Shown: positions 2,063-56,897 of the stretch, piece after piece | Position numbering within the stretch: position 1 is the first letter of the stretch | How the letters are laid out: each line of letters opens with the position of its first letter | DNA from: Gammaproteobacteria bacterium | GTDB lineage: Bacteria; Pseudomonadota; Gammaproteobacteria; Methylococcales; Methylomonadaceae | DNA: 56,897 nt | Reading direction: 5' to 3' | Assembly: GCA_018830325.1 (NCBI GenBank) | Contig: JAHJSQ010000077.1 | Coordinates: forward strand, 1 to 56,897 | The notes under the pieces: model-generated | The model's database searches: none | The model's input: the letters and a program-made list of their open reading frames with translations, nothing else | Told to the model about the DNA's origin: nothing | Program-made: the position numbers and the translations under genes

Positions 2063-4282
2063 TTAGGGAGCAGAGTTGTTTATAACTTTCGTTTGCCGCG
2101 TCAAGATGATTCCGCCTAGCGGAGGTAAAGTCAAGTATATCGATTGTTGGTGTCCCATCCAAGGCTCCGGTTTCGAAAGTATCTCGCGGTTGCCGACGTT
2201 GCTGCCTTCATAATAGGCAGAGTCTGAATTAAAGATTTCAAAATAAACCCCTTCGGAAGGCACGCCGATATGATAGTTTTCTCTCACAATCGGTGTGAAA
2301 TTAAGTATGATGATCAAATCATCATTGGTGCCTTTGCGGCGGTAGCTGATAACCGATTGTTCGACATCATGGCAATCGATCCAGTCAAAGCCGCTGTGAT
2401 TGAAGTCGTATTGGTGAAGTGCGGGGTGGTTTTTATACAAATGATTAAGATCTTTGACCAAAGTTTGCAAGCCTTGGTGTTGAGGATGCTGAAGTAGATA
2501 CCAATCTAAGGGTTGGTTGAAATTCCATTCGGTGCCTTGCCCGAACTCAGTGCCCATAAACAATAATTTTTTACCCGGGTAGGTAAACATCAAGGTATAA
2601 AGTAGGCGCAAATTCGCAAATTTACGCCATTCGTCTCCCGGCATTCTGTTGAGTAACGAGCCTTTGCCGTGAACGACTTCATCGTGAGAAAACGGGAGGA
2701 CGAAATTTTCGGTAAAGGCATAAAGTAAGCCGAAGGTCAGTTGATCGTGGTGATAACGCCTGTGTATCGGGTCGCGGCTTATATAATCGAGAATGTCGTG
2801 CATCCAGCCCATGTTCCATTTCATCGAAAAACCGAGGCCTCCTGTCCAAGTCGGGCGGGTTACCTGAGGCCAAGCGGTCGACTCCTCTGCCATCATGGCC
2901 GTACCGGGGTGTTGTTCATGGGTTACGGTATTGAGTTCTCGCAAAAAAGCGATTGCCTCGAGATTTTCGTTGCCGCCATACATATTGGGAATCCAGTCGT
3001 TTTCATCGCGGGAATAATCCAAATAAAGCATTGATGCGACGGCGTCGACCCTAAGGCCGTCAAGGTGAAATTCTTCAAGCCAAAATATCGCGCTCGCCAG
3101 TAAGAAATTTTTGACTTCGTTGCGGCCGAAGTTAAAGATCAGGGTGCCCCAATCTCTATGCTCGCCTTTGCGGGGGTCTTCGTGCTCATAGAGCGCGCTA
3201 CCGTCAAACCGAGCCAGTGCGAAAAAGTCCTTCGGAAAATGCGCGGGGACCCAGTCTAAAATAATGCCGATATTATTTTGATGGAAGAGGTCGATAAAGT
3301 ACCTGAAATCGTCGGGCGTCCCATGCCGACTAGTCGGGGCGAAGTAACCCGTTGATTGGTAACCCCAAGACGCATCGAAAGGATGCTCTGTGATAGGCAA
3401 TAATTCGATATGGGTAAAGCCCATGTCTTTGACGTATTGGATTAACTGTTTCGCGATCTCTCGGTAATTCAAGAAATTGCCGGCATCGTCCCGTTGCCAC
3501 GAGCCTAAATGCACTTCGTAAATCGACATCGGTTCGTGTAGCCAGTCGCGGGTTTTGCGATAGGTCATCCATTTCGCATCTTGCCATTGATAGGCTTCTT
3601 CTTTGACGACGATCGAAGCGGTTTTAGGGCGATGCTCATATTGCTGGGCATAAGGATCTGTTTTAATTAAAATTTCTTGGCTTTGACGGTTCAGTATTTC
3701 GAATTTATATAAACAGCCCGCGTCGAGACTCGGAATAAAAAGCTCCCAGATCCCGCTGTTGCCTAGCACCCGCATTAAGTGACAGCGACCGTCCCAGCGG
3801 TTAAAATCGCCGACCACGCTAACGCGCGCCGCGTTCGGGGCCCAGACGGTAAATAATACGCCATCGATTCCGTCGATGTTGTGTCGATGCGCGCCAAGTT
3901 TTTGGTAGATATGCCAATGCTTGCCTTCGCCGAACAAATGACGATCGAATTCCGGCAATTGCTCGGGAAAGTCATAAGGGTCGTAATCGGTGTGTTGTTG
4001 GCCTTCTTTGTCGATCCAAGAAATTTGATAATGTTCTGGTAATTCGCCGGGCTGAGCGGTATATTCAAAAAAGTCAGTTTCTGCGAGTCGAAGTATTTCA
4101 GGGCCTTTCTCAGCAAAACGGACCGAATCGGCGTAAGGCAAATAGAGCCTTATTTTGGTCGGACTTACCTTGTTCAGGTTGTTATCGCTGAGTCGACCTA
4201 AAACGGAAAAAGGATCGTGATGTTTGGCTTCAATGATTTTGCATAAATCATCACACAGCGGCATATTGGATTGCTTTTTCAC
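2063..4282 (-). CDS. glgB: 1,4-alpha-glucan branching enzyme (GH13_9), first copy
   Basis: The enzyme forms alpha-1,6 branches in glycogen by cutting and transferring alpha-1,4 chains. The family layout is complete: an N-terminal GlgB module, a CBM48 module with [20 protein letters not shown], then the GH13 barrel. Catalytic motifs are visible: [12 protein letters not shown] (nucleophile Asp), MAEESTAWP (acid/base Glu) and [12 protein letters not shown] (transition-state Asp). At about 739 residues it is normal in length. The start is uncertain. A GTG at 4282 has a GAGG about nine bases upstream, a TTG lies 15 bases further out (4297), and an ATG lies at 4264. It is divergent from glgC. The second GlgB (16074-18299) shares all the motifs but is clearly diverged, so this is an old duplication or separate acquisition, not a recent copy. 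Confidence 0.94.
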
Positions 4283-4373
4283 TTCGAAACGCCTCAATGT
4301 AGTAGAATGATTTTTATCGGAATGTTACCACCTAAGCAACAGATGTAATAGTCAATTCCAGAAGGGGATTAAA

Positions 4374-8888: not shown

Positions 8889-9092
8889 ATGCCCATCGTA
8901 GATTAAAATTCGGCGCCGGGGTGACCATTAAAGGACGCTGTGAACCTAGTACCTAAATTATCCTAGATGGTTAAGCATGGGCTATGGGCTATGGAATTTA
9001 GGTGCTGGGTGAATACGTCCATGTAAGCAAAGCCTTTGCCGATCACCCCGGTGCCTCCTTAAGCATCGCCGAAATTTTAGTGCAAAAGGTAT
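8889..9092. repeat. MITE-like element, family B (copy B1) with nested palindrome
   Basis: An element of about 204 bp between malQ and the DUF4912 gene. Its left end is a variant of ATACCCATCGTAGATCAAAA and its right end is the inverse of ATACCTTTCGCACTTCAAAT, forming imperfect terminal inverted repeats of about 26 bp that end in the sequence CGGC. TA dinucleotides border the outer ends, as in other family B copies. The core carries the ACGCTGTGAA/TGAATACGTCC version of the shared core, interrupted by the nested element at 8945-9009. The rest of the 8821-9214 gap shows no gene. Confidence 0.75.
8945..9009. mobile_element. nested palindromic insert, about 65 bp, with TGAA duplication
   Basis: The ends are CCTAGTACCTAAATT and AATTTAGGTGCTGGG, inverted repeats of 15 bp with two differences. 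TGAA flanks both sides (8941-8944 and 9010-9013). The undisrupted core in other copies reads CGTGAATACGTCC with a single TGAA, so the duplication is best explained by insertion. Confidence 0.7.
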
Positions 9093-15886: not shown

Positions 15887-16046
15887 ATACCTTTCGCACT
15901 TTAAATTTCGGCATTAGCCTATGGAGGTGCCGGGATGTTCGGCAAAGGCTTTGATAGCATGGATGCTATCATAGAGCCTACATGGACGTATTTACGGCGT
16001 CCTTTGACGGGCACCCCGGCACCGAAATTTGACAAGTAAGGGGTAT
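15887..16046. repeat. MITE-like element, family B (copy B2)
   Basis: An element of about 160 bp between the GH13 gene and glgB2. Left end ATACCTTTCGCACTTTAAAT; right end ACCGAAATTTGACAAGTAAG, then GGGTAT. The core contains CATGGACGTATTTACGGCGTCC. The inner segment GATAGCATGGATGCTATC can fold into a hairpin. TATA borders both ends, compatible with a TA target. It ends 27 bp before the likely glgB2 ATG and therefore forms part of its leader. The remainder of the 15742-16073 gap shows no gene. Confidence 0.75.
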
Positions 16047-16073
16047 AAATTCGCGGGCTTCCCGCAAAAGCAG

Positions 16074-18299
16074 ATGAGTAAAACAAAACTATCCACAGAA
16101 TTACAGAGTCTTGTCGATGCAAAATGCAGCGATCCCTTTGCCGTTTTAGGCCGCCATCCCAAGGATGACAAACAGGTTGTGGTACGAGCTTTTTTGCCCC
16201 ATGCCGAAACCGTGGCCTTGGCCGAAGGAAACTTGCCATTGACTCGAATTGAAGGTACGGCTCTTTTCGAATGGCATGGCTTAGCATCACAAGTTCCTCC
16301 ATGCTATCGGCTGATTTGGCGCGATCAAGACCATTACGAGCACATCGGTTACGATCCTTATTGCTACGGGCCGCAATTATCGGATTACGATTTACATTTA
16401 TTCAGTGAAGGTAAACATTGGCATGCTTACCGTTTGCTGGGTGCACGCGTACACGAAATCGAAAATGTCGCCGGCGTGCTGTTTTCCGTGTGGGCGCCTA
16501 ATGCATCGCGAGTCAGCGTAGTCGGCGATTTCAACCGCTGGGACGGCCGTTGCCATCAAATGCGGGTGCGCGGTAATGGCGTTTGGGAGCTTTTTATTCC
16601 AGGATTAGAGCCCGGCTTGGTTTATAAGTATGAAATTCGCGCGAAGAACGGCGATATTTTATTAAAGACAGATCCTTACGGTCGGTTTTATGAGGTTCGC
16701 CCGAATACGGCAAGCATTGTAACGGCAAACGATAAGTTTAATTGGCATGACCAAAAATGGTTGAAACAGCGTGAGAAGTTCGATTGGCAGCACAAGCCGA
16801 TTAGCATTTACGAGGTGCATTTGGGGTCTTGGCAGCGAGGCTCCGAAGGCGAGTTGCTCAATTACCGGCAATTGGCGGTGGCCTTGGTGGAATATGCCAA
16901 AACCTTAGGCTTTACTCATCTTGAGTTGTTACCGGTTACTGAGCATCCCTATGATAAATCATGGGGCTACCAAACGACGGGGTACTATGCGCCAACCAGC
17001 CGTTTCGGTAGTCCCGAAGATTTTCGCTGGTTTGTCGATTATTGTCATCAGCACGAGATCGGTGTCATTCTCGATTGGGTGCCGGCGCATTTTCCAAAAG
17101 ATGCGCATGCGCTTGCATGGTTCGACGGTACATCGCTTTACGAGCATGAAGATCCAAGGCTCGGCGAACATCGTGATTGGTCGACATTGATCTTTAATTT
17201 CGGCCGCTATGAAGTTAAGAACTTTTTGATCTCGAGTGCGCTGTTCTGGCTCGAGGAATATCATGTGGACGGTTTGCGCGTCGATGCGGTAGCGTCAATG
17301 TTGTATCTTGATTATTCCCGTGAGGAAGGCGAGTGGATACCCAATAAATACGGCGGCCGCGAAAATTTGGAGGCCATCGACTTTTTAAGATCATTGAACG
17401 AAATTACCCATCAACAAGTTCCCGGCGTGTTGATCATGGCCGAAGAGTCGACCGCTTGGCCGCAAGTTACTAAACCGCCGTATGTCGGTGGGTTGGGCTT
17501 CGATTTGAAGTGGAATATGGGTTGGATGAACGATACGTTGCGCTACATGGAAAAAGAGTCGATCTTTCGCCAATACCATCAGGGAGAATTAACCTTTAGT
17601 CTGATTTACGCCTTTACGGAAAATTTTTTGTTGCCGTTTTCTCACGATGAAGTGGTTCACGGCAAGCAGTCGATGTTATATAAAATGCCCGGCGATGAGT
17701 GGCAGCGCTTTGCTAATTTGCGTTTGGTGTATTTTTATATGTTTACCCACCCCGGCAAAAAGTTGCTCTTCATGGGTTGTGAATTCGGTCAAGGGCGCGA
17801 ATGGGATAGCAGTCAAGTGCTTGACTGGTATGTGTTGGCCTATCCGATCCACCAAGGCTTGCAACATCTGGTTAAGACGCTGAATCACACCTATCAAAAG
17901 GAGACGGCTTTACACGCCAATGATTTTACCGATGCGGGATTTGAGTGGATTGATTGCCATGATGCCCATAACTCGGTGCTGATCTATATCCGCAAGGATC
18001 CGGAGACAGGCGCGTTTCTCATTGTGGCGTTGAATTTTACCCCGGTGCCTCGCGAGTATTATCACATTGGTGTACCGGCAGCCGGGCGTTATGATGAAAT
18101 CCTTAACTCCGATGCGCAGGAATTCGGTGGCAGCGGGGTGATAAATTCACCGGACGGTATTTGGACTCAGGAACAAGCCTGGATGAATCGGCCTCACTCG
18201 CTCTATATCACTTTGCCGCCTTTAGGTGGGGTCGTCTTAAAACACAGTCAAACGGCACTCGGTCCGCAAGCGGTGTTAACGCCTCCCAAAAAGAATTAA
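16074..18299 (+). CDS. glgB: 1,4-alpha-glucan branching enzyme (GH13_9), second copy
   Basis: A second GlgB of about 741 residues with the same layout as the first: GlgB N-terminal module, CBM48 with [20 protein letters not shown], and GH13 barrel with [12 protein letters not shown] (nucleophile), MAEESTAWP (acid/base) and [13 protein letters not shown] chose the ATG at 16074 ([11 protein letters not shown]). A longer frame opens at a TTG at 16029 inside repeat B2 and is unlikely. No strong Shine-Dalgarno precedes 16074. It is the last gene of the plus-strand glycogen run and is followed 12 bp later by a hairpin terminator. The two GlgB copies differ throughout, so they may favour different branch lengths or conditions; this is inference. 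Confidence 0.94.
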
Positions 18300-24463: not shown

Positions 24464-24553
24464 TTCACTGTTCACTGTTCACTGTTCACTGTTCACTGTT
24501 CACTGTTCACTGTTCACTGTTCACTGTTCACTGTTCACTGTTCACTGTTCACT
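24464..24553. repeat. TTCACTG tandem array, 12 perfect copies
   Basis: Twelve identical TTCACTG heptamers from 24464 to 24547, then a partial TTCACT. Read on the other strand the unit is GTGAACA, so it fits the same heptad family in inverted orientation. Perfect identity suggests slippage and probably length variation between isolates. Confidence 0.95.
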
Positions 24554-24615
24554 ATTTTATATCAAGGGAAAAATGAATTGTGAGTGGCGGTATTGATTCG
24601 CTATTTGTTGGGATG

Positions 24616-25378: not shown

Positions 25379-25567
25379 GTAGGAATATGCACAAAATAAC
25401 CTCTATAAGTAGTAGGCTTTGCGGCGGTTCGGTGACTCGCTTGACAGGACGCCGTGAATACGTCCGTGTAGGCTTGACGGCGGCTTTCCCTGCCGCCGAC
25501 ACCTGTCAATCGAGCCGCCGAACCCCCTTCCAAAGTTGTCGACGTTATTTCATGCTCGTTCCTTAGG
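25379..25567. repeat. MITE-like element, family A (copy A2)
   Basis: About 189 bp, the cleanest A copy. Left end TAGGAATATGCACAAAATAA, right end the inverse of CTAAGGAACGAGCATGAAAT. The interior holds GACGCCGTGAATACGTCC and GGCGGCTTTCCCTGCCGCC, so the element is largely palindromic. Directly upstream of lpxH. Confidence 0.8.
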
Positions 25568-32998: not shown

Positions 32999-33219
32999 TT
33001 TAGACAACTGTTGGAAGGGGGGGCGGTGGCTCGCTTGGCAGGTGTCGGCGGCAGGGCAGATTTTTGCTCCTGCAAAATCTGCATTCATGCCATCCATGGC
33101 AATCTTATAGCCGCCCGCCGTCAAGCCTACACGGACGTATTCACGGCGTCCTGTCAAGCGAGTCACCGAACCTCCGCAAAGCCTGCTAATTGTAGAAGTT
33201 ATTTTGTGCATATTCCTAG
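32977..33219. repeat. MITE-like element, family A (copy A3)
   Basis: About 243 bp, in the opposite orientation to A1 and A2. Left end CTAAGGAACGAGCATGAAAC, right end the inverse of TAGGAATATGCACAAAATAA. The core is lengthened by about 50 bp containing CAGATTTTTGCTCCTGCAAA. It lies wholly between mxaS and mxaA and reaches into the likely start of mxaA. Confidence 0.78.
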
Positions 33220-43070: not shown

Positions 43071-43259
43071 TAAGGAACGAGCATGAAATAACTTCGACAA
43101 CTTCTGGGAGGGGGGGGCGGTGGCTCGATTGACAGGTGTCGGCGGCAGGGAAAGCCGCCGTCAAGCCTACATGGACGTATTCACGGCGTCCTGTCAAGCG
43201 AGTTACCGAATCGCCGCAAAGCCTACTACTTGTAGCAGTTATTTTGTGCATATTCCTAA
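43071..43259. repeat. MITE-like element, family A (copy A4)
   Basis: About 189 bp. Left end TAAGGAACGAGCATGAAATA, right end the inverse of TAGGAATATGCACAAAATAA. The core has GGCGGCAGGGAAAGCCGCC and CATGGACGTATTCACGGCGT. Same orientation as A3. It sits between yhdP and the nitrilase-family gene. Confidence 0.8.
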
Positions 43260-47893: not shown

Positions 47894-48088
47894 ATACCTT
47901 TCGCACTTCAAATTTCGGCGATGCTTAAGGAGGCGCCGGGGTGATCATCGGTGCATAGAGTCTACCTGGACGTATTCACCCAGCACCTAAATTCCATAGC
48001 CCATTGGGAATGGTTAATAGCCTTAGATATTTAGGTGCGGAGCCTTTGGCGATCACCCCAATGCCGAATTTTGATCTACGATGGGTGT
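47894..48088. repeat. MITE-like element, family B (copy B6) with nested palindrome
   Basis: About 195 bp. Left end ATACCTTTCGCACTTCAAAT, right end the inverse of ACACCCATCGTAGATCAAAA. The core holds a nested palindrome (47979-48042). The element ends 44 bp before the likely start of the uracil-DNA glycosylase gene. Confidence 0.75.
47979..48042. mobile_element. nested palindromic insert, right end degenerate
   Basis: Begins CCCAGCACCTAAATT after TTCA (47975-47978) and ends near TTTAGGTGCGGAG. The left junction equals the other insertions; the right TTCA and the adjacent core are lost, so no duplication remains. Confidence 0.6.
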
Positions 48089-52675: not shown

Positions 52676-52866
52676 ATACCGGTTCCGAAGAGGGTGCGGT
52701 TGCTCGATCGACAGGCGTCGGCGGCAGGGACAGCGGCCGTCGAGCCTACATGGATGTATTCACCCAGCACCTAAATTCCATAGCCCTTTGGCTATGGTAA
52801 CTATCGAGCATAATTTAGGTGCTGGGTTCACGGCGTCCTGTCGGGCGAGTGACCGTACCCTCAGCC
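52676..52866. repeat. MITE-like element, family D, with nested palindrome
   Basis: Begins CCGGTTCCGAAGAGGGTGCG, then TGCTCGATCGACAGGCGTCG, and ends CCTGTCGGGCGAGTGACCG. The core is split by the nested insert at 52763-52826. Confidence 0.7.
52763..52826. mobile_element. nested 64-bp palindromic insert with TTCA duplication
   Basis: The clearest copy. Ends CCCAGCACCTAAATT and AATTTAGGTGCTGGG are perfect 15-bp inverted repeats. TTCA flanks both sides (52759-52762 and 52827-52830), whereas uninterrupted cores read GTATTCACGGCGTCC with one TTCA. The inner part has CCATAGCCCTTTGGCTATGG, itself a hairpin. Confidence 0.8.
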
Positions 52867-56604: not shown

Positions 56605-56897
56605 ATCGGGACGAAAAGTTTTTTGCCTTGACTGTTCGTAATGAAGAACGCAACAGCAGTATTTTCGTTATCTTCAGTTTCCCATGGTAATCGCTTTTTT
56701 AAGGCTATGTTCGCGTTAATAGTTGATACTTTATGAACTGAAAGCCAACATGAAATCCAAGGATACAACTCTTAGTCACTTTCCTTTTTTCAATATCACG
56801 CCAATGGTTGAAAGGAGGGTACGGTTGCTCGATTGACAGGTGTCGGCAGCAGGGAGCTGCCGTCAAGCCTACATGGACGTATTCACGGCGTCCTGTC
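56605..56897. repeat. end of window: partial family D repeat
   Basis: No gene after hemB. From 56813 the sequence GGAGGGTACGGTTGCTCGAT, then TGACAGGTGTCGGCAGCAGG and CATGGACGTATTCACGGCGT is a core-repeat copy cut by the window edge. Its TTCA is not interrupted, so it gives the empty-site form of the core. Confidence 0.65.

Follow-up and report, generated by a model that had tools for sequence, protein, structure and literature searches.

Positions 52759 to 52830 of contig JAHJSQ010000077.1 hold a short palindrome that lies within a longer repeat and between two copies of TTCA, and they raise the question of whether this palindrome moves by itself or is a fixed module of the repeats that contain it. 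The contig was analysed over 56,897 nucleotides, and this whole stretch is referred to here as the window. We consider it probable, with good confidence, that the palindrome is a MITE-like element, a non-autonomous DNA transposon of very small size (64 or 65 bp) with ends CCCAGCACCTAAATT, a TTYA/TRAA target and a DDE-like enzyme that would act in trans.

Hairpin copies and empty cores in the window

The features of the window that bear on this question are as follows.

52763..52826, + strand: hairpin element, 64 bp, with perfect 15-bp terminal inverted repeats CCCAGCACCTAAATT
52759..52762, + strand: TTCA target, left copy
52827..52830, + strand: TTCA target, right copy
52681..52859, + strand: D-type host repeat of this element copy (limits approximate)
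8945..9009, - strand: 65-bp copy in a B-type repeat, two changes in the left arm
47979..48042, + strand: 64-bp copy in a B-type repeat, right arm degenerate
43153..43195, + strand: empty core with a single TTCA
33113..33155, + strand: empty core with a single TTCA
25443..25485, - strand: empty core with a single TGAA on the + strand
56855..56897, + strand: empty core at the window end with a single TTCA
15964..16006, + strand: degenerate empty core with TTTA

The initial annotation had described the same palindrome in three repeats, with the target doubled in two of them, and both statements were borne out at 52763-52826, 8945-9009 and 47979-48042, where 15, 13 and 12 of the 15 arm positions pair, respectively. 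The doubled target is TTCA at the first copy and TGAA at the second (8941-8944 and 9010-9013). The third copy has TTCA on the left (47975-47978) and CCTTTGGC on the right, and no duplication is visible because the right half of the core has been lost. The insert-free cores with a single target that had been reported at 43180, 25460 and 56880 were likewise found (43153-43195, 25443-25485 and 56855-56897), together with the one at 33113-33155. In alignment, the left part of the D-type host repeat resembles 43102-43184 and its right part resembles 33140-33172.

Ten arm matches with up to 3 mismatches are present in the window, compared to a mean of 1.5 and a maximum of 5 in 100 shuffles. As single-stranded DNA, the 52763-52826 copy folds at -22.5 kcal/mol, compared to a shuffle mean of -5.94 (z-score -9.05), into a long stem that encloses a second hairpin, CCATAGCC-CTTT-GGCTATGG. 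All three copies sit between ORFs, and no transposase family match was obtained among the 40 window ORFs scanned against Pfam (36 of which had some match), in agreement with the initial annotation. The window also contains a tandem array of the 7-mer TTCACTG (24464-24563) and, within one starch/glycogen gene cluster, a related pair of genes for enzymes of the glycogen-branching type (2063-4297, - strand, and 16029-18299, + strand).

Copy number, targets and host repeats among relatives

The source genome (G000, 4.80 Mb in 167 contigs) belongs to a methanotroph whose close relatives include Methylomicrobium sp. wino1 and Methylotuvimicrobium buryatense. A search of this genome and its relatives for paired ends, as the initial annotation had proposed, gave 88 exact-arm copies in the genome itself (none for the reversed pattern) and 6, 110, 66, 82 and 7 in five genus relatives. 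Exact-arm pairs were present in 8 of 101 genomes including our own, and two genomes of other genera had 11 copies and 1 copy. When two arm positions were freed, matches were found in 10 of 201 genomes; one of another genus (G125) had 89 relaxed pairs, and the single relaxed match of G055 proved to be an RNase P RNA hairpin. Genomes with the element, among the matches listed, include the named Methylomicrobium sp. wino1 and Methylotuvimicrobium buryatense 5G and the MAGs CSSed165cm_201 and HGW-Gammaproteobacteria-3, names that point to the family Methylomonadaceae; in the last of these MAGs, one copy (L291, 3978-4041) has flanks unlike the core and unlike the usual context there. No match was found in the viral contigs, plasmids and phages searched.

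Flanks were analysed for 73 of the 88 own copies, with the remaining 15 left out. The element is non-coding with 15-bp arms, and 70 of these 73 copies are 64 or 65 bp long. Among the arms of 156 copies, 15 positions were changed on both sides (2.0 expected), 11 of them to the same letter (0.7 expected); 8 of these 11 are the TCCAGC..GCTGGA ends of the nested-guest form and are therefore not independent.

On the left side of the own copies, a GGAYG-type core was found in 68 of 73, CTGCATTCA in 4 and an irregular sequence in 1. The surrounding repeats are of several kinds (B, D, E and C), sorted by loose motifs such that assignments vary between two sortings, and repeat families with different outer ends have the same central core. 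The left and right 4-mers are identical in 56 of the 73 copies (TTCA 38, TTTA 9, TAAA 6, TGAA 3) and differ in the other 17, so that the claim of target duplication holds for the majority of copies and not for all. In 60 of 66 B- and D-type copies of our genome and the relatives G004 and G002, both flanks carry the same base at the third target position (C/C 53, T/T 7, otherwise 6; Fisher p 5e-7, C/T cells only). Relative to shuffling, identical flanks were in modest excess: 32 of 36 for B (27.2 expected), 26 of 30 for D (19.7) and 30 of 46 for E (17.4), the E-type contexts often having unequal flanks. Of the own copies, 64 face one way relative to the core and 9 the other, and one element subtype carries TTTA flanks in 4 of 4 copies; both are expected if recombination copies flanks along with the element.

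Over 1.6 Mb of G004, 61 empty cores (up to 4 substitutions; TTCA 48, TTTA 10, other 3) were found beside 54 filled ones. The flanks of the filled cores are identical in 34 cases and TTCA/TTTA in 9. The presence of empty cores bears on the possibility that the element is a fixed module of composite repeats (B, D and E types) and spreads only with them by block duplication. Contexts in two other genomes favour such spread: 53 of the 56 listed G125 copies are flanked by TTTA and TGAA, a pattern that would fit a longer palindrome made up of the element and its flanks, and 7 of the 9 listed G021 copies with flanks have one common context. Against it, this part of G004 has similar numbers of empty and filled cores.

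Gains of one element plus four bases between genomes

A position in the 1.6 Mb of G004 could be assigned to 21 own copies. When G002 and G004 were compared, placement on the other genome succeeded for 19 of the 25 copies in G002 and for 12 of the 60 in G004. Many placed loci differ by far more than one element. Whole host repeats are missing at the orthologous G004 sites of own loci L008 and L009, and those of G004 at 460 kb and 753 kb are missing in G002, as block duplication of entire composites would predict. L056 is filled in both our genome and G004, L075 lies inside one unbroken match, and the alignments of own L018 and L048 with G004, and of G002 36.5 kb with G004, are too divergent to be informative. 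A B-type repeat was also found inside an element copy, at a TA (G004 149415), which suggests that B repeats are mobile themselves. The proposal of a small mobile element with a preferred site was supported, with the amendment that part of the copies reflect the movement of whole host repeats.

The alignment of filled and empty flanks, a check that had been suggested at the outset, isolated the element in three orthologous comparisons, with differences of 69, 69 and 138 bp. Firstly, G004 809008-809072 represents +69 bp relative to G002 at a place with no core, upstream of an ORF starting MYVLGLETSCDET, which we take to be TsaD; the empty site reads TGAA, and the filled flanks are AGAA and TAAA. 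Secondly, at G004 475 kb there is a +138 bp difference from G002 within a B core in nearly identical flanking sequence; TAAA is present once in the empty site and twice in the filled site, and the inserted DNA consists of two nested copies with a joint length of 134 bp. Thirdly, G004 592.7 kb has +69 bp relative to own L058 within another copy, between TTCA and TTTA, with four further base differences in the interior of the host copy. Because 69 is 65 + 4 and 138 is 134 + 4, each gain equals the element plus 4 bp. Two of the three pairs are of the nested type, and we infer that the direction was gain, not precise loss, at all three sites.

These pairs rule out block duplication as the sole mechanism, and it remains a contributor. 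If the element spread only with composite repeats, as the initial annotation reasoned, all copies would be expected at one core position with identical flanks, with neither empty sites nor a second target. That pattern was not found, because there are three orthologous empty sites, one insertion (G004 809008-809072) lies outside any core, seven copies sit in an arm of another copy, and cores occur in several repeat families whose outer sequence differs. The B core that lacks the element in G002 but has it in G004 between nearly identical flanks, and the insertion outside a core, both speak against the block-duplication account, which we regard as improbable.

Copies in the arm of another copy number one in our genome and six in G004, in hosts of differing sequence. 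All 7 nested sites have TAAA and TGAA flanks without an exact duplication, and a single subtype accounts for 6 of the 7 guests, which may point to a common origin. The constant TGAA may go back to a single ancestral nesting that recombination then multiplied, or the element may have carried this flank with it. On their outer sides, the nested composites are flanked by TTCA/TGAA, with the exception of the 475 kb pair, whose TAAA matches its empty site; this is consistent with, and not proof of, a copied target, or with flanks that arrived with a donor.

An element-borne TGAA would also fit single-strand transposition of the IS200/IS605 or REPIN type, in which TTCA would be a cleavage site, and the strong hairpin and the single orientation of 64 of 73 own copies point the same way. 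Nevertheless, both orientations occur, TAAA/TAAA flanks are found at a TAAA target, and the element does not contain a GTAG- or CGTC-tagged REP pair; this mode of transposition is very improbable.

A further possibility is homing-like copying, in which empty cores would be cleaved by an endonuclease and repaired from a filled core, the element being copied together with some flanking sequence. In the 1.6 Mb of G004, roughly one recognisable core in two has an insert, and the inserts sit at a single position; in addition, the TTTA-flanked subtype keeps its flanks, the four interior differences at L058 look as if a copy had been replaced, and a GIY-YIG nuclease is encoded by rRNA insertions whose ends resemble those of the element (below). 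Such spread would explain half-filled cores, yet not the 809 kb insertion, where there was no core to home into; furthermore, each gain comprises the element and 4 bp, with no further donor flank visible. We consider homing-like copying unlikely.

The non-autonomous transposon reading that we favour would operate in the following way. An enzyme supplied in trans would recognise the 15-bp ends and cut TTYA/TRAA with a 4-bp stagger, which would result in the 4-bp target duplication. The preferred target would be the middle of a short palindromic core, GGAYG..TTYA..CGTCC, belonging to several other dispersed palindromic repeat families, and its loop may be recognised as a structure. The element also inserts into the arms of its own kind and rarely into other sequence. 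Host repeats with the element aboard move too, such that the present copies are a mixture of direct insertions and passengers. The copy number, the ends, the empty cores, the nesting, the orthologous differences of 65 + 4 bp and the gain of a nested pair as a single unit of 134 bp plus 4 are the directly shown parts of this account.

The moving enzyme, rRNA insertions and known systems

That a DDE-type enzyme moves the element is suggested by the target duplication. The initial annotation had proposed looking for an IS with matching ends; none was found among 2.0 Mb of two relatives (1.6 Mb of G004, 0.4 Mb of G002), 30 DDE_Tnp_1 loci and 30 IS1380-type loci. Of 122 arms in 1.6 Mb of G004 (up to 1 mismatch), 5 were lone and none of these was IS-like; of 164 arms in the own loci, 2 were lone, both in L015. 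End pairs 0.5-3.2 kb apart numbered 11 in G004, the same as a reversed-arm control there, and 3 in G002, and none had a duplication. Repeated segments of 0.6-3.5 kb (18 in G004, two of which contain rRNA, and 0 in 0.4 Mb of G002) had no inverted ends like those of the element. In the 30 of 100 DDE_Tnp_1 matches inspected (5 of 6 genus genomes), the element arms never surrounded the transposase; arms were near some of these loci, three of which are ordinary element copies. An IS1380 origin, considered because the ends in our view resemble those of ISEcp1, was rejected: PF13701 was found in 0 of 6 genus genomes, and the IS1380 ends that were readable among 30 loci of other genera begin CCTRAAT, CCTAAAAA or CCCGGAT, compared to CCCAGCA for the element.

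Ends of the same kind were found in 23S rRNA genes and RNase P RNA. The 23S insertion sites are numbered here, by our own assignment, as helix 25 and helix 68.

Helix-25 insertion, G003: ends CCCAGCACCTAAATT, the same as in the element; length 283 nt, without a GIY-YIG hit
Helix-25 insertions, G004 and G002: ends CCCGCCCCTAAATT
Helix-25 insertion, G140: ends CCCCGCCCCTAAATT
Helix-25 insertion, G020: ends CCCCTCACCTAGAT
Helix-68 insertions, G004, G003 and G020: ends CCCCTCACCTAGATT
GIY-YIG loci, G125 and G117: ends CCCCGCACCTAAATT and CCCGCACCTAAATT
RNase P RNA hairpin, L166 1456-1516 and L167 1501-1564: element-type ends

The 23S loci were read in 30 of 47 genomes with a 23S match; insertions were found at helix 25 in 5 of 26 readable genomes and at helix 68 in 3 of 30. 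All eight start with a C-rich stem and CCTARAT, and relative to the empty gene of G005 they replace 16 and 8 bases without duplication. No group I intron match was obtained with Rfam at the 23S insertions, one of the two checks covering the helix-68 site only. The helix-68 insertion of G004 encodes a GIY-YIG protein (PF01541) and contains a hairpin of 100 bp, each arm of which matches the element arm at 15 of 15 positions. This insertion varies by operon, with two hairpins and an ORF at 375 kb and about 290 nt at 1.63 Mb. The loci with 23S insertions, several of which have GIY-YIG ORFs, include L098 (15018-15520 and 16836-17132, G004), L133, L134, L135, L148 and L162. The RNase P RNA of G031 and G055, from one other genus, has an internal hairpin of 61 or 64 nt with ends CCCAGCCCCTAAATT or CCCTGCACCTAAATT. 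Our own assembly gave no 23S match.

Each of the 21 GIY-YIG hits (E about 1e-9 or better) has a 23S match no more than 2 kb away. At E<=1e-9, 7 of the 47 genomes with a 23S match have a hit (G002, G003, G004, G020, G117, G125 and G140), and the four genomes of the 47 with at least 50 relaxed pairs (135, 75, 89 and 89) are all among them (hypergeometric 2e-4, three of the four being of one genus). Against this link, G117, G020 and G140 have 0 pairs despite a hit, G005 (8 pairs) and G021 (12 pairs) have no such hit, and in G003 the insertion with identical ends and the one with the GIY-YIG gene are separate.

Judged by sequence, the 15-base ends of the element are the same as, or closely similar to, the terminal stems of the 23S intervening sequences of relatives and of the RNase P RNA hairpin. 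Common ancestry most likely explains the ends common to the element and the 23S intervening sequences. Under a wider and rather unlikely reading, one mobile superfamily defined by CCCNGCNCCTAAATT-type ends would unite the dispersed hairpins with the 23S intervening sequences that encode GIY-YIG proteins and with the hairpin of RNase P RNA; its members would insert into hairpin loops and be moved, wholly or partly, by the small GIY-YIG nuclease.

Among known systems, the element is best classed as MITE-like, although 64 or 65 bp is small for a MITE. IS1397 is an example of an IS that targets REPs, and the small dispersed repeats of Nostoc, at 21-27 bp, are very small and nested in other repeats. 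In the element, the arms pair with each other into a single long stem with neither a GTAG nor a CGTC tag, in contrast to REP/REPIN sequences, in which two inverted REPs each form a hairpin with such a tag and are linked to a RAYT gene. Prokaryotic MITEs are, according to one review (PMC10969869), likewise short and non-coding, with inverted-repeat ends, target duplication, many copies and no enzyme of their own; the element differs in its preference for the core of other palindromic repeats, in nesting in its own kind, and in that no parent IS with matching ends was found within the search described above. Insertion sequences such as ISPpu9 (PMC8450116) and those of PMC1525189 also target dispersed palindromes, but they are full IS in REPs, whereas the present element is a non-autonomous hairpin and its host repeats appear to be mobile themselves. 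The GTAG-15 dimers of Anabaena variabilis are also small palindromic repeats inside a larger palindrome; in that study (PMC3733652), REP-free target palindromes were reportedly not found in A. variabilis and H. neapolitanus, whereas empty targets of the element are common in G004.

The terminal inverted repeats of 23S rRNA intervening sequences form a stem that replaces a hairpin loop, and their origin is described as unclear, with a transposition remnant as one hypothesis (PMC4990558). Their end sequence is identical or similar to that of the element; they replace 16 or 8 loop bases, whereas the dispersed element adds 65 + 4, and the three window copies are intergenic while those analysed across our genome occupy dispersed repeats, so only the ends are common. 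The new observation is this identity or similarity of ends between the dispersed element, the 23S intervening sequences and the RNase P RNA hairpin; among the literature matches listed, there was no account of the element or of the end likeness, though an earlier publication may exist.

The filled and empty cores, the self-nesting and the genus relatives with 6 to 110 exact-arm copies make this family a natural system for the study of target choice. In addition, the ends common to the element and the rRNA insertions support the old idea that the latter are products of transposition, and because insertions of the element can be seen in comparisons between species and its ends match rRNA insertions of its own genus, the family offers a concrete test of the transposition-remnant hypothesis.
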